A DNA stretch of 60,186 nucleotides, from assembly GCF_028307215.1 (NCBI RefSeq), contig NZ_JAQMHV010000016.1:1-60186 (forward strand). The letters run 5' to 3'. The notes beneath the pieces are model-generated. The model worked only from the letters and a program-made list of their open reading frames with translations. It was not told the origin of the DNA and made no database searches. Numbering within the stretch: the stretch's first letter is position 1; the number at the start of each line of letters is the position of its first letter. Origin of the DNA: Falsirhodobacter sp. 20TX0035. GTDB taxonomy: Bacteria; Pseudomonadota; Alphaproteobacteria; Rhodobacterales; Rhodobacteraceae. Shown in pieces: positions 8,001-28,631 of this stretch. The position numbers and the translations under genes were made by a program.

Positions 8001-8750
8001 ATGGACCGGATCTTTCTGCGCGACCACGTGGTCGAAACCGACATCGGCGCCTTCGAGGTGGAACGCGGCCGGCCCCAGCGCCTGCGCTTTGCCGTGGAGG
8101 TCGAGGTCGCGCATGTGCAGGCCCATGACAACGTGGACCTGATCCTGTCCTACGACCGCATCCGCGAAGCCATCACCGACGAACTGGCCCGAGGCCGCGT
8201 GGCGCTTCTGGAAACGCTGGCCGACGGCATCGCTGCCCGGCTTCTGGCGCATCCCCAGGCCCGCGTGGTGCATCTGGAGATCGAGAAGATGGACCGCGGT
8301 CCCTTCCGCCTGGGCATCCGCGCCACCCGCCGCCGCGGAGAGGTGGAACTCGCGACCCGGGACGCCGAGGCGCCGACCGTCGTCTATCTGGGGCAGGGCG
8401 GGCAACCCGTGGCGGGCGCGGTGAACTGCGTGGCCGGAACGCCCGCGACCGGCCCCGACGCGCCGGCCCAGCGCCGGCTGAATCTTCTGGCGGTGGAGCA
8501 GGCGGCCTGGCTGCGGAGCGGCCCCGGCACCACCGTCGCCGGAACATGGACCGAGATGGACTGGGCCCTGCGCCAGGGCCTGGCCGTGATCTGGGCACCC
8601 TCGAAGATGGTGCTGGAGGCGGCCGATCCCCCATCCTCCACCGCGCCGGACGCGCTGGCGGTCTGGCTGGCCGAGCAGTTGGGCTGCCGGACGATCACGG
8701 CCCTTGAAACCATTTCGGCGGAAAGCCGCGTCGCGGTGATCCCGGGCTGA
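8001..8750 (+). CDS. folB: dihydroneopterin aldolase with extra C-terminal domain
   Basis: Residues 1 to about 115 are a FolB domain of folate synthesis, splitting dihydroneopterin to hydroxymethyl-dihydropterin. The substrate Glu (DIGAFEVERG), the SYDRI tyrosine and the catalytic Lys (IEKMDRG) are present. Residues ~120-249 are extra; a stretch reading WAPSKM...TAPDALAVWLAEQLG resembles the end of amino-acid-kinase folds such as MfnE, without its N-terminal phosphate loop. ATG at 8001 follows AGGCGGGG. folP follows after 35 bases. Confidence 0.85.
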   Translation: MDRIFLRDHVVETDIGAFEVERGRPQRLRFAVEVEVAHVQAHDNVDLILSYDRIREAITDELARGRVALLETLADGIAARLLAHPQARVVHLEIEKMDRGPFRLGIRATRRRGEVELATRDAEAPTVVYLGQGGQPVAGAVNCVAGTPATGPDAPAQRRLNLLAVEQAAWLRSGPGTTVAGTWTEMDWALRQGLAVIWAPSKMVLEAADPPSSTAPDALAVWLAEQLGCRTITALETISAESRVAVIPG

Positions 8751-8785
8751 CTTGCCATGCGGCCCCGCATCGGTAGAAGTGCCGG

Positions 8786-9760
8786 ATGACCTGTTACCGT
8801 CCCATCGCCCAGACCGATCCCGCCCGTTCCCCCGGCGCGCTGACCCTTGCGGGCGGCTGGTGCTGGTTCGACCGGGTGGAGGTGATGGAGCGGGGCCGTC
8901 GCGAGATCATCGCCGCCCATGAGTTGCCCGAGGTCGCACGCCAGCGTCTGACCGATCCCCGGCCGCCCTTGCACGGGCTGACCTGGGACGCGCCGCGCGT
9001 CATGGGGATCGTGAACGCGACACCCGACAGCTTTTCCGACGGCGGCACCTATGACCCCGTGGCGCAAGGGCGCGCCCTCGCGGCCGACGCCGATCTTCTG
9101 GACATCGGCGGCGAAAGCACCCGCCCCGGCGCGCAGACGGTGGCCGAGGAGGAGGAGATCCGCCGCATCCGCCCGGTGATGGACGCGCTGCGCGGGCTGC
9201 GCCCCCTGTCCATCGACACACGCAAGGCGGCGGTGGCCAAGGCGTCGGACGCGGACATGGTGAATGACGTGTCGGCGATGCTCTATGATTCGGCCATGGC
9301 GGGCACCGTGGCGCGCATGGGCGCGTCGGTCTGCCTGATGCACGCGCAGGGTGTGCCGGAAACGATGCAGGACGATCCCCGCTATTCCGACGTGCTGCTG
9401 GACGTGTACGACCATCTGGCCGAACGGATCGCGATGGCCGAGGCGGCGGGCATCCCCCGAAGCCGCATCGTGGTCGATCCGGGGATCGGCTTTGGCAAGA
9501 CGATGACGCACAACCTGACCCTGATCCGCGGGCTGTCGGCCTTTCACGGGCTGGGCTGTCCCATCCTTCTGGGCGTGTCGCGCAAGGGCTTCATCGGCCG
9601 GATCGGGCAGGCCGCCACCCCGGCCGACCGGATGCCAGGGTCGGTGGCGGTGGCGCTGGCGGGCGTGGCGCAGGGCGCGCAGATCTTGCGCGTGCATGAT
9701 GTGGGGGCGACGCGGCAGGCGCTGGCGCTCTGGATAGCCTCGACAGGAGAGATGAGATGA
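8786..9760 (+). CDS. folP: dihydropteroate synthase
   Basis: Condenses 6-hydroxymethyl-dihydropterin diphosphate with p-aminobenzoate; the sulfonamide target. The TIM-barrel motifs are all present: [39 protein letters not shown] and GVSRKGF. The 324-residue product has an N-terminal extension of about 70 residues before the first barrel motif, longer than the textbook enzyme. It overlaps glmM by ATGA and follows folB, making a folB-folP-glmM operon. Confidence 0.96.
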
Positions 9761-17825: not shown

Positions 17826-18977
17826 TTAAGCGCGACGCGCCTTCATCGCTTCGGCGAACCGTTCGAACAGGTGATAGCTGTCCTGCGGGCCGGGGCTCGC
17901 CTCCGGGTGATACTGTACGGAGAAGACAGGCTTGCCTTCCATCGAGATCCCGCAGTTCGATCCGTCGAACAGGCTGACATGCGTTTCCACCACGCCCGCG
18001 GGCAGGGTCTGGCTGTCCACGGTGAAGCCGTGGTTCATGGACGTGATCTCCACCTTGCCGGTGCCGACGTCCTTCACGGGGTGGTTCGCGCCATGATGGC
18101 CGTGGTTCATCTTCACGGTCTTGGCGCCCAGCGCCAGCGCCAGCATCTGGTGGCCAAGGCAGATGCCAAAAACGGGGACGTCCTTTTCCAGCACGCCCTG
18201 GATCATCGGCACGGCATATTCACCGGTGGCGGCCGGATCGCCCGGGCCGTTCGACAGGAACACGCCTTCGGGGTTCAGCGCCAGCACATCCTCGGCCGTG
18301 GCCGTGGCGGGCAGGACGGTGACGTCGCAACCGGCCGAGGCGAGGCAGCGCAGGATGTTGCGCTTTGCACCGTAGTCGATGGCCACCACCTTCAGGCCCG
18401 CGCCTTCGCGCGCCTTGAAGCCTTCGGGCCAAGCCCAGCGCATCTCGTCCCAGCGGTAGGACTGGGCGCAGGTCACGTCCTTGGCCAGATCGAGGCCGAC
18501 CAGACCGCGCCAGGCGCGCGCCTTCGCGACAAGGCCCGCCACGTCGAAGTTTCCGTCGGGATCATGGGCCAGCGCCACATGCGGCGCGCCCTGCTGCCGG
18601 ATCGCCCGGGTCAGGCGCCGCGTGTCCAGACCGCCGATGCCGATGCGGCCCTTGGAGGTCAGCCAAGCCTTCAGCTCCTGCGTCGCGCGCCAGTTGGAGG
18701 CGTCCGTGGGATCCCATTTCACCACCATGCCGGCGGCGACGGGATCGGCCGTCTCGTCATCCTCGGCCGTGGTGCCGACATTGCCGATATGGGGGAAGGT
18801 GAAGGTCACGATCTGCCCGGCATAGGACGGATCGGTCATGATCTCCTGATACCCGGTCATGGCGGTGTTGAAGACGAGTTCGGCCACCGTCTCGCCCACA
18901 GCGCCGAAGCCGCGACCGTAGAAGACCGTCCCGTCCGCCAGCGCCAGGCAGGCCGTGGGTTTGGATTGCGTCTCCAT
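17826..18977 (-). CDS. carA: carbamoyl-phosphate synthase small subunit
   Basis: Glutaminase subunit feeding ammonia to CarB for arginine and pyrimidine synthesis. 383 residues with the class I amidotransferase nucleophile in GICLGHQML and the His/Glu pair in VQYHPEASPGP. ATG at 18977 is chosen because GAGGAG lies just upstream; an in-frame extension upstream lacks conservation. carB is not in the window, as is common in alphaproteobacteria where carA and carB are apart. Confidence 0.96.
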   Translation of the reverse strand: METQSKPTACLALADGTVFYGRGFGAVGETVAELVFNTAMTGYQEIMTDPSYAGQIVTFTFPHIGNVGTTAEDDETADPVAAGMVVKWDPTDASNWRATQELKAWLTSKGRIGIGGLDTRRLTRAIRQQGAPHVALAHDPDGNFDVAGLVAKARAWRGLVGLDLAKDVTCAQSYRWDEMRWAWPEGFKAREGAGLKVVAIDYGAKRNILRCLASAGCDVTVLPATATAEDVLALNPEGVFLSNGPGDPAATGEYAVPMIQGVLEKDVPVFGICLGHQMLALALGAKTVKMNHGHHGANHPVKDVGTGKVEITSMNHGFTVDSQTLPAGVVETHVSLFDGSNCGISMEGKPVFSVQYHPEASPGPQDSYHLFERFAEAMKARRA

Positions 18978-19109: not shown

Positions 19110-19565
19110 ATGACCATCCGCGAAAAGCTGCAAGCCGCCCTGAAGGACGCCATGCGCGCCAAGGAGGCCGACCGGCTGTCCACGCTGCGTCTGATCAACG
19201 CCGCCATAAAGGACCGCGACATCGCCGCCCGCGCCGAAGGAACGGACGCCGTGCCGGACGCCGAGATTCTGGCCGTGCTGGGGCGCATGGTGAAGCAGCG
19301 CCAGGAAAGCGCCCGCGTCTATGACGAGGGCGACCGCCCCGAACTCGCCGCCAAGGAGCGGGCCGAGATCCGCGTGGTGGAGGAGTTCCTGCCCCGCCGC
19401 CTGTCGGACACCGAGGTGGCCACGGCGGTGGACGAGGCCATTGCCGCGACCGGCGCCAGCAGCCTGCGCGACATGGGCCGCGTGATGGCGGAGTTGAAGG
19501 CGAAATACACGGGCCAGATGGATTTCGGCGCGGTGGGCGCCCTGCTGAAGGCGCGTCTGGGCTGA
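19110..19565 (+). CDS. GatB/YqeY domain protein
   Basis: 151 residues, a full-length YqeY protein: helical tail domain related to the tRNA-binding part of GatB. Motifs include LRLINAAIKDRDI, EEFLPRRLSD and DMGRVMAELKAKYTGQMDF. Its function is thought to be tRNA-related (transamidosome relatives) but is not settled. Start at 19110 matches the MTIREKL opening of relatives. It is divergent from carA. Confidence 0.93.
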   Translation: MTIREKLQAALKDAMRAKEADRLSTLRLINAAIKDRDIAARAEGTDAVPDAEILAVLGRMVKQRQESARVYDEGDRPELAAKERAEIRVVEEFLPRRLSDTEVATAVDEAIAATGASSLRDMGRVMAELKAKYTGQMDFGAVGALLKARLG

Positions 19566-19642: not shown

Positions 19643-19828
19643 ATGGCGAGGGTCAGGGGAGAGTATGTCGCGGAACATGCGGGTGTCGCCTTGGCCGCCC
19701 GCCGCGGGCTGATGACCCTTCGCGCCCTCAGCAGCCGGTCCCGCGCGATGTACGACACCCTGACGTTGGCGGAACTGGAAGAAATGGCGCCGCCGGATGT
19801 CGTGGAACTGCAGCGGGCCGTGCGCTAG
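19643..19828 (+). CDS. 61-residue hypothetical protein
   Basis: ATG at 19643 follows GGAAGGGG with good spacing. The product is basic and helical in its first half, then carries TLTLAELEEMAPPDVVELQ. No hydrophobic segment and no recognised domain. Its TAG stop is shared as CTAG (19825-19828) with the convergent oxidase-like gene. Codon use looks like neighbouring genes. It may be real but conservation has not been tested. Confidence 0.5.
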   Translation: MARVRGEYVAEHAGVALAARRGLMTLRALSSRSRAMYDTLTLAELEEMAPPDVVELQRAVR

Positions 19829-21081
19829 GCGCGCAGGGCGTCCGGCTCTGCCTCGGCCTCCCAAGCGGCCGGGGTGGTCGCGCCGAAGCGGATCGCCCAA
19901 GTCGTGACGATCAGGAAGCCTGCGAAGGACGCAAAGGACAGGGCCGCGCCCGCCACCTCCACCATGCCCGACCAGCCGAAGATGGGGGCAAGGAAGGACA
20001 GGTTCGCGCCCGCGAACATGAGGGCTGCGTGCAGCATAGCCCAGCCTTCCGGCACCCGGCGCGCCGTCATCTGCGGCAGCCACAGATAGAAGCCGCCAAA
20101 GGCCGCGAACACCGCACCGACGCCGGCCGCATAATGGAACCGTGCCACCCCGTCCTGTCCGGCCGTCAGCGCCGCCGCGCCCAGCGTCAGCGCCATGAAG
20201 CCGACCGCCCACAGAAGGGGGGAGCCGACATGCCGCACGCCGCGCGCCAGCGTCAGGACCCACGCGGCGAGGATGACCAGCGACGGCAGCAGGACGGCCG
20301 TGGCCGCCGCTCCGAAGAAGGCACCCTCTTCCGTCGGGTGATACAGATCCTGCATCCACAGCGTCACGCCTAGCCCGGCCAGAACGCCCATGGCCAACAG
20401 GATCGCAGGCTTCATCGCCAGCGGCCGCCGGGCGAAGCGTTCCACGATGTCCGTCACGATGCCCAGAGAGGGGAGGATCAGCACGAAGACCAGCGGATGG
20501 GCCAGCGCCGCAGCCGCCTGACGCAGATCCTCCGGATCGAAGGGCGGCCGCAGGGCCAGAAGCAGCGCGGCGGCGGCGATGGTGGGCACGGCCAGAAGCA
20601 TCAGCATCGCCGTCATGGCCAGCGACCAGGCGAAGACGGGCACCTCGGGCAGGGGCATGCCTTGGCGCTGCGTCAGGAATGTGGTGAGGGTGTTGATCGC
20701 GATCAGCAGGGACGAAAGGCCCGCAAGCGACAGCGCCAGCAAGCCGAGTGTAACCGATCCCCCCAGCATTGCCCCCGCCGCCAGCAGCAGCGACACCGCA
20801 TGCGCCACCCAGGAGGCCAACCCAACGCGCGGGAAGGCTAGTTGTTCGGCGCCCACCTGCACGGGCAGGCGCCACAGGCCAAGGCCGCCGCACAGGGCGG
20901 GCATCAGCGTGAACGCCATCATCATCAGCCCGTGGGTCGTGGACAGCATCGCCCAGGTGGGGCTGTCCACCCCGCCCATGCGCAACCGTCCCGTCACCGC
21001 CAGCGACAAAAGGGCGCCGAGGGTGGAGCTGACCAGAAACAGGGCCCCGATCCGGCGTGATGCGAAGGTCAGTCTGGCCAC
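19825..21081 (-). CDS. heme-copper oxidase subunit I homologue lacking active-site ligands
   Basis: 418 residues, about 12 membrane spans, co-linear with CtaD. Compared with the intact subunit I at 24121: the low-spin heme ligands persist (H50 in STTHGLMMM, H316 in RFHY). The CuB-side HPEVY is HPLVF (H195 kept, Glu and the cross-link Tyr lost), the CuB pair HH is MQ (243-244), and the high-spin heme ligand His is R314. It should therefore bind at most one b- or a-type heme and cannot reduce oxygen. It has no partner subunits adjacent; lipB lies upstream in the same direction. Confidence 0.8.
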   Translation of the reverse strand: MARLTFASRRIGALFLVSSTLGALLSLAVTGRLRMGGVDSPTWAMLSTTHGLMMMAFTLMPALCGGLGLWRLPVQVGAEQLAFPRVGLASWVAHAVSLLLAAGAMLGGSVTLGLLALSLAGLSSLLIAINTLTTFLTQRQGMPLPEVPVFAWSLAMTAMLMLLAVPTIAAAALLLALRPPFDPEDLRQAAAALAHPLVFVLILPSLGIVTDIVERFARRPLAMKPAILLAMGVLAGLGVTLWMQDLYHPTEEGAFFGAAATAVLLPSLVILAAWVLTLARGVRHVGSPLLWAVGFMALTLGAAALTAGQDGVARFHYAAGVGAVFAAFGGFYLWLPQMTARRVPEGWAMLHAALMFAGANLSFLAPIFGWSGMVEVAGAALSFASFAGFLIVTTWAIRFGATTPAAWEAEAEPDALRA

Positions 21082-21118
21082 AAGGCTCTCCGTGTTCGTG
21101 GGCGGGCTGCCAAGGGGA

Positions 21119-21790
21119 TTATACGCCCGTGGCGGGCAGGTTCAACATGGGGAAGTGGCGGGGGAAGGTGGCCATCAGCGCCGCGTCCACGTCGTCCATG
21201 GTCACGGGCAGCCCCAGATCGACCAGGCTCGTCACCCCATGGTCGCGGATGCCGCAGGGCACAATGCCGTCGAAATGCGACAGGTCGGGTTCGACGTTCA
21301 GGCTGATGCCGTGGAAGCTGACCCAGCGGCGCAGCTTCACGCCGATGGCCGCGATCTTGTCTTCCCGCGGGGCGCCGTCTGGGCCGGGGGCCTTATCGGG
21401 GCGGACCACCCAGACCCCGACGCGGCCCGCGCGGCGTTCGCCCTTCACGCCGAATTCGGACAGCGTGTCGATCACCCAGTTTTCCAGATTGCACACAAAG
21501 CGGCGCACGTCACGGCCGCGCGCGCCCACGTCCAGCATCACATAGGCCACGCGCTGGCCGGGGCCGTGATAGGTGTATTGCCCGCCGCGCCCGGCCACGA
21601 ACACCGGGAACCGGTCGGGCGCCACAAGGTCGGCCGCGTCGGCCGAGGTGCCGGCGGTGTAAAGCGGCGGATGCTCCAGAAGCCAGACGGCCTCCTCCGC
21701 CTCTCCGCGTGCGATGCGGGCGACCCGATCCTCCATCGCGGAAAGGGTCTGGATGTAGTCGGCCTGGCCGGGAAGGTGGGTCCACTCCAT
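21119..21790 (-). CDS. lipB: octanoyl-[acyl-carrier-protein]:protein octanoyltransferase
   Basis: Moves octanoyl from ACP to lipoyl domains of 2-oxoacid dehydrogenases and GcvH, first step of lipoate synthesis. 223 residues. [12 protein letters not shown] forms the substrate pocket, and the catalytic Lys (IGVKLRRW) and Cys (VPCGI) are visible. Start at 21790 is preceded by GAGGG on the minus strand. Confidence 0.96.
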
Positions 21791-23030: not shown

Positions 23031-23125
23031 GAAGCCTCGGATAAATCGGGACAAAGGGAAGCGGTCTCTGGACTATGCCTCCTCGCGCCATAAGGTTGCA
23101 TCACGCATTGGTGAGGCAGCAACGT

Positions 23126-24124
23126 ATGATACGCAGCTTGGCAGGATCGGGACGACGGCTGGTAGCCATGGCGCTGATGATGGCGCTGGCCGGATGCGCG
23201 GGCCGTCAATCGGCCCTGTCCCCTGCGGGCGAGGATGCGAGCTGGCTGCACGACCTGTGGATCGTGATGCTGGTGGGGGCCGTGATCCTGTGGACGGCGC
23301 TGAACGGCCTGTTCTTCTTCGTGACACGCGTCCGCCCCAACGACTGGCCCGAACGGCACGCCAACCGCCTGATCATCGGAGGCGGGGTGATCTTTCCCAC
23401 GGTTCTGGTGGGAACGCTTCTGGCCTACGGCCTGTCGATGATGCCGCACATGCGCGCCGATGGCGACGGGCTGGTCGTGAAGGTCCGGGCCGAAGAATGG
23501 TGGTGGCGCGTGGAATACTGGCCCGCCGGGGCCACCGCCCCCATCGTCACCGCGAACGAGATCCGGCTGCCCACGGGCCAGCGCACAGAACTGCTGCTGG
23601 ACGCGAACAAGTACATCCATTCGTTCTGGGTTCCGGCGCTGGGCGGCAAGATGGACATGTTCCCGGGGCGCGAGACGCGGATGACGCTGCGGCCCGAAAC
23701 GCCCGGCGTCTATCGCGGCCAATGCGCCGAGTTCTGCGGCCCGTCGCACGCGCTGATGGCGTTCGAGGCGGTGATCCTGACGCCCGGGGACTTCGCCGCA
23801 TGGCTGGAGGCCGAAGCCGCCCCCGCCGCCCCGCCCGCCACCCCCGAGGCGCAGCGCGGCCAAACGCTGTTCCGCGACGAGGGCTGCGGCGCCTGCCACG
23901 CCGTGCGCGGCACCGAATTCGACGGCCTCGTCGGGCCGGACCTGACCCACCTCGCCTCGCGCCAGTCGCTGGGCGCGGGGATCATGGAGGTCACGCGCGA
24001 GGATCTGACGGATTGGATCGCCCACACGCGCGACATCAAACCCGAGGTGGCCATGCCCGCCTATGACTGGCTGGAGGCCGCAGAGCTGGCCGATCTGGCC
24101 GCCTATCTTGAGGGACTGAAATGA
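23126..24124 (+). CDS. ctaC: cytochrome c oxidase subunit II with fused cytochrome c (caa3-type)
   Basis: 332 residues. Lipoprotein signal with lipobox LAGC (Cys24), two membrane spans (43-68, 84-105), then the periplasmic CuA domain with H165, C200, E202, C204, H208 and M211. A C-terminal class I cytochrome c follows (C254-G-A-C257-H258). It receives electrons and passes them through CuA to subunit I. First gene of a five-gene operon; its stop overlaps the next start (ATGA). Start at 23126 opens the lipoprotein signal. Confidence 0.95.
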   Translation: MIRSLAGSGRRLVAMALMMALAGCAGRQSALSPAGEDASWLHDLWIVMLVGAVILWTALNGLFFFVTRVRPNDWPERHANRLIIGGGVIFPTVLVGTLLAYGLSMMPHMRADGDGLVVKVRAEEWWWRVEYWPAGATAPIVTANEIRLPTGQRTELLLDANKYIHSFWVPALGGKMDMFPGRETRMTLRPETPGVYRGQCAEFCGPSHALMAFEAVILTPGDFAAWLEAEAAPAAPPATPEAQRGQTLFRDEGCGACHAVRGTEFDGLVGPDLTHLASRQSLGAGIMEVTREDLTDWIAHTRDIKPEVAMPAYDWLEAAELADLAAYLEGLK

Positions 24125-26667
24125 TCGACCGGCGCCCGCAGGGCATCTACCCCCCGACCGAGGAGATGCTGGCCGAACCCGTCCCGGCCGAGGTGCAGGA
24201 GCGTCAGGCCGACAGCCTGACCAAGGTCTGGAAGACCAAGACCGGCATCCGCTACCTCATGTCGGTCAACAACTCAGAAATTGGGAAGTGGTATTCGCTG
24301 ACCTGCTTCGGCTTCATGCTGCTGGCGGGAATCCTGGCGCTTCTGGTGCGGGTGCAGCTGGCCTATCCCGACATGCAGTTCCTGGACGCGGACCGGTTCA
24401 ACCAGTTCTTCACCATGCACGGCACGGCGATGATGTTCCTGTTCGCCGTGCCCCTGTTCGAGGCGATGGCGATCCTTCTGCTGCCGGCCTTCCTGGGCGC
24501 GCGGGACATGCCGTTCCCGCGGCTGTCCTCGTTCGGGTACTGGTCGTTCCTGATCGGCGGCATCTTCGTGATGGGGTCGGTGCTGTTCGACGTGGCGCCG
24601 AATTCGGGCTGGTTCATGTATCCGCCGCTGGCGACGGAAGCGCCGGGGCCGGGGTCCGACATCTGGCTTCTGGGCCTGTCCTTCATCGAGGTTGCCTCCA
24701 TCGCCGCCGCGGTCGAATTGATCGTGGGCGTGCTGAAGTGCCGCCCGCCGGGAATGCGCATCAACATGATGCCGCTTTACGCGTGGTACGTGCTGGTCGT
24801 GGGGGGCATGATCCTGTTCGCCTTCCCGCCCCTGATCGCGGGCGACCTGCTGTTCGAACTGGAACGCGCGCTGGACTGGCCGTTCTTCGACGCGACGCGC
24901 GGCGGCGATCCCCTGCTGTGGCAGCACCTGTTCTGGATCTTCGGCCATCCGGAAGTCTACATCGTCTTCCTGCCGTCCATCGCCATCGCGGCCATGATCG
25001 TGCCGACCGTCGCGCAGCGGCCCATCGTCGGGTATTCGTGGATCGTGCTGTCGGCCGTGGGGACGGGCTTCCTGTCCTTCGGCCTGTGGGTCCACCACAT
25101 GTTCACGACGGGGCTGCCGAACATCTCGCTCGGCTTCTTCTCGGCCGCGAGCGAGGCGGTGGTGATCCCCACGGGCATCCAGATCTTCGTCTTCGTAGCG
25201 ACCCTGATGGTGGGACGAGTGAAGATCAGCCTGCCCATGCTGTGGATTGCGGGGGCGCTGGCCATCTTCACCGCCGGCGGGCTGACCGGCGTCATGATCG
25301 CCATCGCGCCCTTCGACTGGCAGGTGCACGACACCTACTTCATCGTGGCGCATTTGCACTACACGCTGTTTGGCGGGATGGTGCTGCCGGTCTTCGCAGG
25401 AATCTACTACTTCCATCCCTTCTTCATGAAGACCTACCTGTCCGAGAAGGCGGGGAAGTGGGCTTTCTGGCTGATCTTCGGCGGCTTCAACCTGACCTTC
25501 CTGCCCATGCACCTGACGGGCCTGAAGGGGATGCCGCGCCGCGTCTACACCTATCCCGGCGATCTGGGGTGGAACTGGCTGAACCTGATCTCCACCGTCG
25601 GGGCGTTCATCATCGCGGTGGGCTTCCTGATCTTCCTGATCGACCTGCTGCGGCCGGGCAAGCGCAAACTGGACCACCGCAACCCTTGGCGCGCGGGCAC
25701 GCTGGAATGGACCGACACTCTGACGGGCGAGGATTGGGGCGTGCGGTCCATCCCTTACATCACCTCGCGCTATCCCCTGTGGGATCAACCGAAGCTGGTG
25801 GAGCGGATGGATGCGGGCCGCTATTACCTGCCGGATGCGCCGGAAGGTCTGCGGGAAACGATGGTCACCTCCGTCATCGACGCGCGGCCGGTGCAGGTGC
25901 AGCGGGTGACGGGCGACGCCTGGGTCACCCTGTGGGCGGCGGTGTTCACGGGGGCGGCCTTCATCCTGCCGACCTTCCACATGTACAAGCCCGCCATCGT
26001 GGCCGGGGCCTTCGCCATCGTCAGCATCCTCTACTGGCTGTGGACCTCCACCGCGCGGAAGCCGGAAAAGGAGATGAAGGACGTGGGCCTCGGCCTGTCG
26101 CTGCCGACCTATGCCTCCGGCGCCTCGGCCGTGGGGTGGTGGGCGATGTGGATCACCATGCTGGGGGATTCCACGGCATTCGCCAGCCTGATCTTCGGGT
26201 TCTTCTTCTACTGGACGGCGCGGCCCGATTTCCCGCCGATGGGCGCGGACCATGCCGACGGGTGGCTGGTCGCCCTGACCACTGGCGCGATCCTTCTGTC
26301 CTGGGCCCTGACCGTGGGGGCGAGGGAGTTGAACCGCCGCGGCCACGTCAACCCGGCGCGGCTGTGCCTTGTGGCGGGGCCGGTTCTGGCGGGGGTGGCC
26401 ATCTGGCTTCTGACGCTGTCGGTTCTGGGTCTGTCGCCGTCCACCCACACCTATCCCGCGACGGTCTGCGCCATCGTGATCTGGGTGGTGGCCCATGCGG
26501 GTCTGGGCATCCTGATGCAGCTCTATTGCCTTGCCGGCAGCCTGTTCGGCAAGCTGGATCCGGATCACGACGCCGACCTTTGGAACGTGACGCTGTTCTG
26601 GCACTTCCACGTCCTGACCGTTCTGGTGGCCACCGCCGTCATCGGCCTGGCCCCCCGCATCCTGTGA
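24121..26667 (+). CDS. cytochrome c oxidase subunits I and III fused
   Basis: 848 residues. Residues ~1-590 are subunit I with heme a ligand in FTMHG, CuB/heme a3 motifs FGHPEVY and HHMF, and the AHLHY double ligand. The D-channel Asp in ARDMPFPR is present, but the K-channel lysine position reads PTGIQIF (Gln). Residues ~640-848 are subunit III (seven-helix type, GDSTAFASLIFGFFFYW, and WHFH near the end). Fusion of I and III is known from caa3-type and CoxMNOP-like oxidases. It is a proton-pumping terminal oxidase. Confidence 0.95.
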   Translation: MIDRRPQGIYPPTEEMLAEPVPAEVQERQADSLTKVWKTKTGIRYLMSVNNSEIGKWYSLTCFGFMLLAGILALLVRVQLAYPDMQFLDADRFNQFFTMHGTAMMFLFAVPLFEAMAILLLPAFLGARDMPFPRLSSFGYWSFLIGGIFVMGSVLFDVAPNSGWFMYPPLATEAPGPGSDIWLLGLSFIEVASIAAAVELIVGVLKCRPPGMRINMMPLYAWYVLVVGGMILFAFPPLIAGDLLFELERALDWPFFDATRGGDPLLWQHLFWIFGHPEVYIVFLPSIAIAAMIVPTVAQRPIVGYSWIVLSAVGTGFLSFGLWVHHMFTTGLPNISLGFFSAASEAVVIPTGIQIFVFVATLMVGRVKISLPMLWIAGALAIFTAGGLTGVMIAIAPFDWQVHDTYFIVAHLHYTLFGGMVLPVFAGIYYFHPFFMKTYLSEKAGKWAFWLIFGGFNLTFLPMHLTGLKGMPRRVYTYPGDLGWNWLNLISTVGAFIIAVGFLIFLIDLLRPGKRKLDHRNPWRAGTLEWTDTLTGEDWGVRSIPYITSRYPLWDQPKLVERMDAGRYYLPDAPEGLRETMVTSVIDARPVQVQRVTGDAWVTLWAAVFTGAAFILPTFHMYKPAIVAGAFAIVSILYWLWTSTARKPEKEMKDVGLGLSLPTYASGASAVGWWAMWITMLGDSTAFASLIFGFFFYWTARPDFPPMGADHADGWLVALTTGAILLSWALTVGARELNRRGHVNPARLCLVAGPVLAGVAIWLLTLSVLGLSPSTHTYPATVCAIVIWVVAHAGLGILMQLYCLAGSLFGKLDPDHDADLWNVTLFWHFHVLTVLVATAVIGLAPRIL

Positions 26668-26674
26668 GGTGACG

Positions 26675-27085
26675 ATGACCGATCCGAAGACCCAGACCGG
26701 CAGCCGGCAGGACGAGTTCGAGTTCTTCGAGGAAAGCAACGCGCTGTGGTGGATCACCCTCGCGCCGACCACTTGGGCGGTGCATTTCGTGCTGGCCTAT
26801 GGCGGCACCGCCGTGTGGTGCGCCAAGTTCGGCGAAACGCAGGGCGTGACGGTCGCCCGCCTGTCGATCGCGGGTCTGACGGTGCTGGCGCTTGGGTTCA
26901 TCGGCTGGCTGGGCTGGCGGTCCGTCCGCCGGTGGAAGCCGCGCCAGAACGACATGGAGGATTTGTCCCATCCCGAGGGACGCCATGAGTTCCTTGGCCA
27001 TGCCGCGTTCCTTCTCTGCATCATCTCGGCCATTGGGGTGGTGTATGTGGCGATGCCCGCCCTTTTCATCACCACCTGCCGATGA
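26675..27085 (+). CDS. small membrane protein of the oxidase operon (subunit IV-like)
   Basis: 136 residues with three predicted membrane spans (about 25-50, 60-85, 105-133) and an acidic N-terminus. It takes the subunit IV position in this operon but I see no definitive family motif. ATG at 26675 follows GAGGT; a GTG six bases earlier is possible. Its stop overlaps ctaG (ATGA). Confidence 0.82.
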   Translation: MTDPKTQTGSRQDEFEFFEESNALWWITLAPTTWAVHFVLAYGGTAVWCAKFGETQGVTVARLSIAGLTVLALGFIGWLGWRSVRRWKPRQNDMEDLSHPEGRHEFLGHAAFLLCIISAIGVVYVAMPALFITTCR

Positions 27086-27651
27086 AGGCGCTGGCGCTCC
27101 TGTCCCTCGTGCTGGCCTGGGCCCCGCCGTGGGAGGCGTGGCTGGGGGTGTTTCCGGCCCACATGTTGCGGCACATGATCCTTGTGGCGGTGTCGGCCCC
27201 GCTTCTGGTGCTGGCCTTTCCGGGCTTCGGTCGCGCGATGGCGGTGCCGCCGGTGCTTGCGACGGCGTTGGAATTTGCGATGATCTGGGGTTGGCACCTG
27301 CCGGCGGCGCATGGGGCGGCCTATCGCCACCTGCCGCTGTTCGTGGTCGAACAGGCCAGCTTCCTGCTGGTCGGCTGCCTGATCTGGGGGGCCTGTCTGG
27401 ACCGGCGCGGCCCGGGGCAGGCGCTGGCGGGGGCGGGGGGCCTCTTGCTGACCTCGATGCACATGACGCTGCTGGGCGCGCTGATGATCCTGGCCCCGCG
27501 TGATCTTTACGCCGAATGGTGCGGCACCGTGCCGTCGGTGTCGGGCCAGCAACTGGGCGGCATGATCATGCTGGCGGTGGGTACGCCGATCTATCTGATA
27601 GGGGGGCTGTGGCGCGTGTCGCAGGTCCTGAACGACGGGAGAACCGCATGA
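27082..27651 (+). CDS. ctaG: CtaG-family (caa3_CtaG) oxidase assembly protein
   Basis: 189 residues, about six membrane spans, with the PAHMLRHMILV and LTSMHMTLLG Met/His-rich segments of the caa3_CtaG family. These proteins are needed for assembly of caa3 oxidase, probably in copper delivery, and are unrelated to Cox11. Overlaps both neighbours by ATGA. Confidence 0.9.
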   Translation: MKALALLSLVLAWAPPWEAWLGVFPAHMLRHMILVAVSAPLLVLAFPGFGRAMAVPPVLATALEFAMIWGWHLPAAHGAAYRHLPLFVVEQASFLLVGCLIWGACLDRRGPGQALAGAGGLLLTSMHMTLLGALMILAPRDLYAEWCGTVPSVSGQQLGGMIMLAVGTPIYLIGGLWRVSQVLNDGRTA

Positions 27652-28631
27652 CGTTGCGTGGCATTCTGACGGTGGTGGCCGTGCTGGCCGGCCTAGGGGC
27701 AGCGGGGGGCGGGGCGGTGGTGGCCTTCGGGCTTTACAACACCTCGGCCCATAGCGGGCACTGGGCCGTCACGGAATGGGCGCTGCACACCACGTTCGAA
27801 AACGCGGTGGCACTGCGGGCGCCGGCCGAATCCGAGGTGCCCGACCTGTCGGACCCGGCGCTGATCGAACTCGGCGCCCGGCATTACGACGGCGCCTGCG
27901 CCATGTGCCATGCCTCGCCCGGAGAGATGGCGCCTGCCACCATCGCCTGGATGGAGCCGGAGCCGCCGCAGGTCGAACAGGCCGTCGAACCCTGGACCGC
28001 CGCCGAGATGCACTGGATCGTCCATGAGGGCGTGAAGATGAGCGGGATGCCCGGCTGGCCCGCCGCCGCGCGTGAGGACGAGGTGTGGGCGGTCGTGGCC
28101 TTCCTTCAGGCCGTTCAGCAGGGGATGAACGCTGACGGCTATGCCGCGCTGACCGGGGGCGAAAGCTATTGCAGCGGGTGCCATGACGGGGGCAACAGCC
28201 GCATTCCCCGGCTGGACATCCTGTCGCCCCCCTATATCGAGGAGTCGCTGCACGCCTATCGTCTGGGCACGCGGGCCAGCGGGATCATGGCGCAGGCGGC
28301 CACCGTCATGTCGCCGGATCGCTACGCCGCCTTCGCGCAGCGGGTGGGCACCACGGCCCCGCGCCCGGCGACGCCCAACCCGCCGCCGGTCGCGGCGCAA
28401 GGGCGCGGGGATGTGCCAAGCTGCCTGTCCTGCCACGGCGCCGGCAACGACAACCCCGACATTCCGACCCTGAACGGCCAGTCGCGCGATTACCTGGCGA
28501 CGCAGCTTTGGTTGTGGCGCGACGGCGTGCGGGGCGGAGGGGAGCGTGCGCCCCTGATGACTGCAGCTGCGCAAGGGCTGACGGACGCCGAGATCGACAT
28601 TCTGGCCGACTACTTCTCGGCCTTGCCATGA
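27648..28631 (+). CDS. membrane-anchored triheme cytochrome c
   Basis: 327 residues with an uncleaved N-terminal anchor (8-30) and three CXXCH sites: CAMCH (84-88), CSGCH (175-179), CLSCH (259-263). The arrangement suggests one N-terminal cytochrome c domain plus a diheme c4/c553-like half with PXLXGQ-type motif PTLNGQSRDYL. It ends the oxidase operon and probably delivers electrons to the fused CuA/cytochrome c subunit. Confidence 0.9.
   Translation: MTLRGILTVVAVLAGLGAAGGGAVVAFGLYNTSAHSGHWAVTEWALHTTFENAVALRAPAESEVPDLSDPALIELGARHYDGACAMCHASPGEMAPATIAWMEPEPPQVEQAVEPWTAAEMHWIVHEGVKMSGMPGWPAAAREDEVWAVVAFLQAVQQGMNADGYAALTGGESYCSGCHDGGNSRIPRLDILSPPYIEESLHAYRLGTRASGIMAQAATVMSPDRYAAFAQRVGTTAPRPATPNPPPVAAQGRGDVPSCLSCHGAGNDNPDIPTLNGQSRDYLATQLWLWRDGVRGGGERAPLMTAAAQGLTDAEIDILADYFSALP

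Follow-up and report, generated by a model that had tools for sequence, protein, structure and literature searches.

A subunit I orthologue in the old slot of aa3 ctaD

The window analysed here, a stretch of 60,186 nucleotides from Falsirhodobacter sp. 20TX0035 (genome G000, 54 contigs), carries on its reverse strand an intact frame with a GTG start (19825-21081), whose 418-aa product has COX1 as its sole Pfam match (PF00115, E 1.3e-43, residues 13-378; Table 1). With 150 bits the protein passes the curated cut-off of this family (34.8 bits), which is matched by all five of the related forms discussed below; it fails TIGR02891, the CtaD_CoxA equivalog (166.2 bits against a cut-off of 670.75). 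Its closest sequence relatives in the PDB are alphaproteobacterial aa3 oxidases, with subunit I of the R. sphaeroides enzyme as the top match (E 1.9e-45). The genome has four COX1 matches, the other three being a 684-aa frame, which is probably a bo3 oxidase, and a pair of caa3-type I+III fusions (frames of 851 and 853 aa). We refer to the 418-aa protein and its counterparts as stripped CtaD.

Table 1. Features of the stripped ctaD locus (window coordinates; residue numbers of the 418-aa protein)
Feature	Position	Strand	Basis or state
carA, flank of conserved slot	17826..18977	-	Pfam CPSase_sm_chain + GATase
yqeY, flank of conserved slot	19110..19565	+	Pfam YqeY
Stripped CtaD (aa3 oxidase subunit I orthologue)	19825..21081	-	Pfam COX1, shared slot, AF2 model
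H316, low-spin heme axial His, TM X, kept	20134..20136	-	5/5 stripped, 7/7 intact, G594
R314 replacing heme a3 His	20140..20142	-	Arg 5/5 stripped; His 7/7 intact; Leu G594
Q244-D245 replacing CuB His pair	20347..20352	-	QD/QQ/QE/DR/QQ in G000/G247/G292/G294/G081
H195, third CuB His, TM VI, present	20497..20499	-	H/Q/H/Q/Q: His in G000 and G292, Gln in G247, G294, G081
H50, low-spin heme axial His, TM II, kept	20932..20934	-	5/5 stripped, 7/7 intact, G594
Ribosome-binding site GGAG of stripped gene	21088..21091	-	Sequence
lipB, upstream of stripped gene by 37 bp	21119..21790	-	Pfam LplA-B_cat
caa3 oxidase I+III fusion, about 4 kb away	24121-26667		Intact ligands

Twelve transmembrane helices are predicted for stripped CtaD, and its AF2 model (pLDDT 81.3, pTM 0.86) contains 12 long helices. 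The first Foldseek match of the model is the R. sphaeroides oxidase, with 29% identity, E 3.5e-17 and a TM score of 0.83 normalised to query length. This agreement with the oxidase fold is partly built in, as intact CtaD supplied 18 of the 21 rows of the AF2 input alignment. The first-pass annotation had described an undamaged gene with the full helix pattern. That description stands: stops and frameshifts are absent from all five forms, and the helices number twelve.

The gene is the aa3 ctaD orthologue in the ancestral slot lipB-ctaD-yqeY-carA. Intact CtaD occupies the same slot in two other Falsirhodobacter genomes, G293 and G295, and the four genes stand together at five of six outgroup loci, only lipB being found at the sixth (L058). 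In G000, G247, G292, G294 and G081 (the order used throughout for the five stripped forms) the slot holds a frame of 400-462 aa. Besides lipB, yqeY and carA, the slot has no conserved partner genes. The distance to lipB (window 21081-21119 in G000) is 37, 52 (or 19), 48, 32 and -4 bp in the five stripped genomes, against 115 bp in G293 and G295. Because the gaps are short, a purine-rich ribosome site precedes four of the five genes and the start of the fifth, in G081, overlaps lipB by 4 bp, the stripped gene is likely coupled to lipB and cotranscribed with it.

The first-pass annotation had measured the protein against the intact subunit I only 4 kb away. That subunit belongs to the caa3 fusion (COX1 match at window 24280-25611), which shares a superfamily with stripped CtaD and differs from it in subfamily, operon and the possession of intact ligands. 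Slot and similarity rule it out as parent or near kin, and the two genes lie some 60 kb apart in G292 and some 367 kb apart, on the same contig, in G247. It is thus an incidental neighbour, and the proper comparison is with the same-slot aa3 CtaD of G293 and G295. The caa3 cluster itself (window 23075-28631) encodes a COX2-cytochrome c protein, the COX1-COX3 fusion, a 138-aa ORF that matches no Pfam family, Caa3_CtaG and a cytochrome c protein in which two stretches are matched; SURF1 was not found among the eight window proteins scanned in this region.

Loss of the oxygen-reducing site and retention of the low-spin heme ligands

We compared residue columns of the five stripped forms with seven rows of intact CtaD. 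Both axial histidines of the low-spin heme had been described as retained in the protein of the window, and they are invariant in all five forms. The replacement of the heme a3 histidine by arginine, likewise described before, is also found in all five, as is the loss of the CuB histidine pair, so these losses are fixed among the homologues. The reading of that pair as MQ was out of register: the W-A-H-H of intact CtaD corresponds to W242-M243-Q244-D245, and HH has become QD. The reported loss of the cross-linked Tyr and of the Glu is borne out in G000 by F199 and L197, the two columns reading F/F/Y/V/T and L/E/Q/Q/H over the five forms. The K-channel Lys is replaced by I/L/A/I/F (I270 in G000), and the D-channel Asp column reads Q/G/D/G/G (Q80 in G000). 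An Arg column, which we take to be the residue contacting the heme a formyl in intact CtaD, reads R/R/R/S/R. Deletions in all five forms have removed the Arg pair for the heme propionates, as well as the Trp and the His-Asp located in the periplasmic loops.

Judged by the residues of a catalytic heme-copper oxidase, the low-spin histidine pair is present, while the a3 histidine and the set of three CuB histidines plus tyrosine are not. The low-spin pair is also the only one kept throughout; each of the other six site residues is lost in at least one of the five forms. The stripped forms share 41 invariant columns among 366 without gaps; 26 of these agree with intact CtaD, 5 are uniformly different (R9, L117, R187, L241, R314) and 10 are mixed. 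The only histidines among them are H50 and H316; the lost ligands have therefore not been replaced by another conserved histidine. This rules out that the ligands were shifted rather than lost, the outcome that would have overturned the earlier description. A working oxidase or NO reductase with displaced ligands could still point to the one CuB histidine left in G000 and G292, yet with no conserved histidines beyond the low-spin pair, and with CtaC and Cox11 absent, such an enzyme is refuted on sequence and we give it practically no chance.

The deletions are distributed unevenly over the fold. Summed periplasmic loops amount to 25, 34, 55, 23 and 21 residues in the five forms against 98 in G293, whereas the cytoplasmic loops amount to 35, 32, 36, 29 and 35 against 36 (with helix limits of our own; a second alignment gives 18-50 and 31-36, respectively). 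Of 351 helix residues, 316-336 remain. In aa3 oxidases, subunit II and cytochrome c dock on the periplasmic face. With periplasmic loops shortened and cytoplasmic ones kept, the deletions are thus nearly confined to this docking face.

In sum of residues, stripped CtaD resembles A-family aa3 CtaD (R. sphaeroides 3om3/1m56) in gene slot, 12-helix fold and both low-spin histidines, and differs from it in having no a3 ligand, no K- and D-channel residues, no propionate Arg loop and at most one CuB ligand.

Dismantling of the aa3 oxidase in one Falsirhodobacter clade

Across seven Falsirhodobacter genomes, intact CtaD occurs in two (G293, G295) and the stripped form in five. Cox11 and a strong CtaC-type COX2 match (E 1e-45) are each present in the two genomes with intact CtaD and in no other of the seven. 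In contrast to a genome with a complete aa3 complex, G000 has no CtaC and no Cox11; its only two COX2 matches lie at the caa3 locus and at the locus of the 684-aa oxidase. In G293 the operon runs ctaC-ctaB-ctaG(cox11)-ctaE-surf1-thrC. Searches with the G293 proteins (tblastn, 1e-6) gave no match to ctaC, ctaG or ctaE in the 16-17 kb around thrC in any of the five stripped genomes, where ctaB (80-86% identity), surf1 (39-47%) and thrC (79-84%) are still found. The ctaB of G000 lies on contig C44, away from the stripped gene. CtaA, as well as heme-copper oxidases other than CtaD, is kept in all seven genomes, so heme A supply is by itself uninformative.

The five stripped genomes form one clade beside G293 and G295 (SH-aLRT 94.7, UFBoot 89) in a species tree of six proteins, for which G295 and the outgroups contributed three or fewer; a single event can therefore explain the pattern. 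The clade that lacks ctaC, cox11 and an intact ctaE in the old operon is the one that holds stripped ctaD.

In two of the seven genomes a hydrophobic ORF lies between ctaB and surf1, at the old place of ctaE: L173:10774-11439 in G247 (221 aa) and L174:10719-11303 in G292 (194 aa). The two copies share 56% identity across an aligned stretch of 168 residues. The ORF is absent from the slot in the other three stripped genomes. The ORF has no Pfam COX3 match and a BLASTP E-value of 0.17 against CtaE of G293; hhalign gives a weak match (probability 15%, E 0.0018). Mainly from its position and this profile match, we suggest that it is a shrunken CtaE, perhaps a remnant of subunit III accompanying stripped CtaD. 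G000 has two SURF1 genes, one in the remnant aa3 operon (C44:60663-61256) and one near the 684-aa frame (C11:583683-584345).

Selection on the stripped gene

The stripped protein of G000 is 32-48% identical to the other four (best tblastn piece), against 84-87% for LipB, 76-83% for YqeY and 91-93% for CarA in the same genomes; pairwise identity among all five forms is 32-52%. With branch times fixed from lipB, yqeY and carA (752 codons), a grid and our own codon likelihood gave a dN/dS of 0.505 on the topology pairing G000 with G292 and 0.524 on that pairing G000 with G247, the pairing of the species tree (support 78.5/77). A value of 1 was rejected on both (2dLL 289 and 262). The neighbours have values of 0.076 (lipB), 0.087 (yqeY) and 0.039 (carA), 6-13 times lower. 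The estimate depends on how time is anchored. Scaling the times by 0.5, 2 and 3 changes it to 1.03, 0.25 and 0.17, the likelihood improving as times lengthen, and with free branch lengths the fit saturates at an uninformative 0.04. In neutral simulations along the tip branches, a lineage gathered on average 2.3-3.2 stops in this GC-rich gene, and the five lineages stayed free of stops in 13, 20, 4, 7 and 18 runs, respectively, out of 200.

Might the gene then be a slowly decaying relic, its purpose gone with the aa3 oxidase, that persists by chance and through the cost of a misfolded membrane protein? Such a relic would agree with a dN/dS near 0.5 where neighbours have 0.04-0.09, with the divergence of the five forms next to a conserved lipB, with the ctaE-like ORF shrunken in two genomes and gone from its slot in three, and with neutral lineages that gather so few stops and escape them in 4-20 of 200 runs. 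It is hard to square, however, with five stop-free lineages, whose joint chance under neutrality is about 4e-7 (frameshifts ignored), with the rejection of a dN/dS of 1, with the invariance of the low-spin pair and R314, with loop loss on one face only, and with the same outcome in a separate lineage described below. We consider a relic unlikely. A dN/dS below 1 together with stop-free frames indicates constraint on the frame, at a level far below that of the neighbouring genes. Gene decay, the fate that the first-pass annotation had weighed against its own reading, thus finds no sign in stops (none in five) and a partial one in the relaxed constraint.

Of the genes left in the old operon, surf1, kept in all five stripped genomes, also evolves fast, with a dN/dS of 0.29 against 0.06 for ctaB and 0.05 for thrC. 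Between G000 and G293, SURF1 identity is 49%; in other genera it spans 38-63% (60 of 61 genomes matched).

A separate origin in G594

Among the matches listed for 95 genomes of the class, one genome of another family, G594, whose lineage is probably that of acetic acid bacteria, encodes a COX1 homologue of 437 aa (Pfam E 1.1e-28); its other COX1-type match listed is a 670-aa frame. The ctaD-like gene overlaps ctaB (L179:7169-8482 and 8443-9441). Its product shares 25-27% of residues with intact CtaD and 18-25% with the Falsirhodobacter forms. As it also has a C-terminal tail of the intact type, we conclude that it arose separately. This independent case is a single genome. Both low-spin histidines are kept in it, the a3 histidine has become Leu and the CuB histidines Tyr, Lys and Met; the loops sum to 35 periplasmic and 36 cytoplasmic residues. 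All six forms together keep 16 of the 230 gapless columns that are invariant in canonical CtaD. H50 and H316 are among them, and of the six O2-site residues none is (0/6). If all columns were equivalent, a random draw would place two given columns within the 16 about 0.5% of the time; in fact the columns differ.

Matsutani (2014) reportedly described an incomplete ctaBD cluster in which ctaD is mutated. For Acetobacter, an orphan COX1 beside ctaB is already published, and the Falsirhodobacter case is a new variant. PMC10715153 describes, after the loss of cytochrome c oxidase, a 'deranged' COX1-like protein beside the heme O synthase gene ctaB, structural and without all cofactor-binding residues, which Degli Esposti and co-workers propose to stabilise CtaB. 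In three A. pasteurianus genomes ctaB and ctaD have conserved, consecutive locus tags (PMC5158111). The Falsirhodobacter protein resembles the Acetobacter orphan, as portrayed there, in being a CtaD left after oxidase loss, with no subunit II and no O2 site. Unlike that protein, published as ligand-free, it keeps the low-spin pair in five of five forms; its gene lies at lipB rather than ctaB, has a separate origin and is accompanied by a surf1 with raised dN/dS. G594 has the ctaD-ctaB layout of Acetobacter and, against that published wording, both low-spin histidines.

By analogy with that proposal, stripped CtaD might be a heme-free structural scaffold that, for example, stabilises CtaB. The overlap of the two genes in G594 and the retained helices and cytoplasmic face speak for it; yet a scaffold has no reason to keep precisely the two axial histidines of the low-spin heme in six of six forms, and the Falsirhodobacter gene adjoins lipB, not ctaB. 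A scaffold of this kind appears quite improbable.

Possible role of stripped CtaD

Fixed losses of the O2 site, frames with no stops, a dN/dS below 1 and an invariant pair of low-spin histidines make a selected, single-heme protein the best reading: stripped CtaD is probably a non-catalytic membrane protein with one predicted heme. A mono-heme protein kept by selection had been proposed in the first-pass annotation; the selection is supported by these data, and the heme is predicted from the two histidines and the fold. The Arg pair for the heme propionates, which in intact CtaD lies in the loop deleted here, is a counterpoint to heme binding.

Subunit I reportedly acquires its heme a site even when its partner subunits are missing. 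In this Falsirhodobacter clade ctaC and cox11 are gone and ctaD stayed in place; once Cox11 and subunit II were lost, subunit I would have retained its low-spin heme only, a possible starting state of the stripped gene. The gene evolved fast, with no stops. It lost the ligands of heme a3 and CuB, the K- and D-channel residues and the bulk of the periplasmic loops, and it kept twelve helices, the loops of the cytoplasmic side and the axial histidine pair. The product would bind one six-coordinate heme (A, O or B) and reduce no O2, with selection acting for the heme-bearing form.

What such a protein might do is suggested by the genes that remain. According to PMC9145763, Cox11 serves CuB and Surf1 promotes heme A trafficking or insertion; 50% of the oxidase made by R. 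sphaeroides without surf1 lacks heme a3. Given these roles and the retention and fast evolution of surf1 in all five stripped genomes, we favour, tentatively, a heme-bearing membrane protein that partners the heme O/A pathway (CtaB, CtaA, SURF1), holding or handing over heme, above a relic, a scaffold or a carrier or sensor. The caa3 and bo3-type oxidases that remain would still draw on this pathway. As between the carrier and the assembly factor suggested earlier, the association with ctaB and surf1 tips towards heme O/A handling; that the Falsirhodobacter gene does not adjoin ctaB is a counterpoint.

A single-heme carrier taking electrons from quinol or from a cytochrome c of the periplasm, or a sensor of redox state, NO or oxygen, would profit from a heme that, by the aa3 fold, may lie near the periplasmic side and be exposed by the shortened loops. 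One six-coordinate heme, however, offers neither a second redox site nor a free ligand position, no output domain is present, and the slot partners are only lipB, yqeY and carA. The same bis-His heme with no free site and the same lack of an output domain count against the sensor that had been among the earlier suggestions; we regard the carrier and the sensor together as very unlikely.

It is a serious possibility, if short of probable, that orphan CtaD has recurrently, in Falsirhodobacter and in the G594 lineage, become a bis-His protein with a single heme and a shaved periplasmic face, serving heme O/A or another non-respiratory task. The two lineages constitute a natural experiment on which part of a heme-copper oxidase stays useful once the oxidase is gone, and in each of them the answer is the cytoplasmic face together with the site of the low-spin heme. 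If this reading is true, the heme-copper oxidase fold has a role beyond electron transfer to O2, and the published claim that all cofactor ligands are lost in such proteins needs revision. COX1 profile matches or 'subunit I' annotations do not prove an aa3 oxidase in a genome. With a series from intact to stripped to gone across seven related genomes, the order in which parts were lost can be tested.

Further occurrences

An alignment-based scan of a contig collection returned 28 loci. Two hold Falsirhodobacter stripped forms (L050, F. deserti W402; L076, Falsirhodobacter sp. alg1) and the remaining 26 have CtaD frames of 557-618 aa; a single-sequence scan of the same collection gave no match. 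In a family search of 394 genomes, only G000 and G081 exceeded 500 bits among the matches listed, the next being a 738-aa frame at 306 bits. Plasmid searches gave no clear further orphan among the matches listed, and a full-text search, with poor coverage of subscription journals, found no paper on stripped CtaD in Falsirhodobacter.

Short COX1 frames (274, 282 and 493 aa) in G630 (C6:34171-34905, C7:7-753) and G580 (C64) are perhaps cut by contig ends. In G614, a 2.3 Mb genome of the class, there are COX1 matches at C34:4017-5309 and C22:21904-23067, one of which contains three in-frame TGA codons; TGA is possibly read there as an amino acid, or the gene is decaying.
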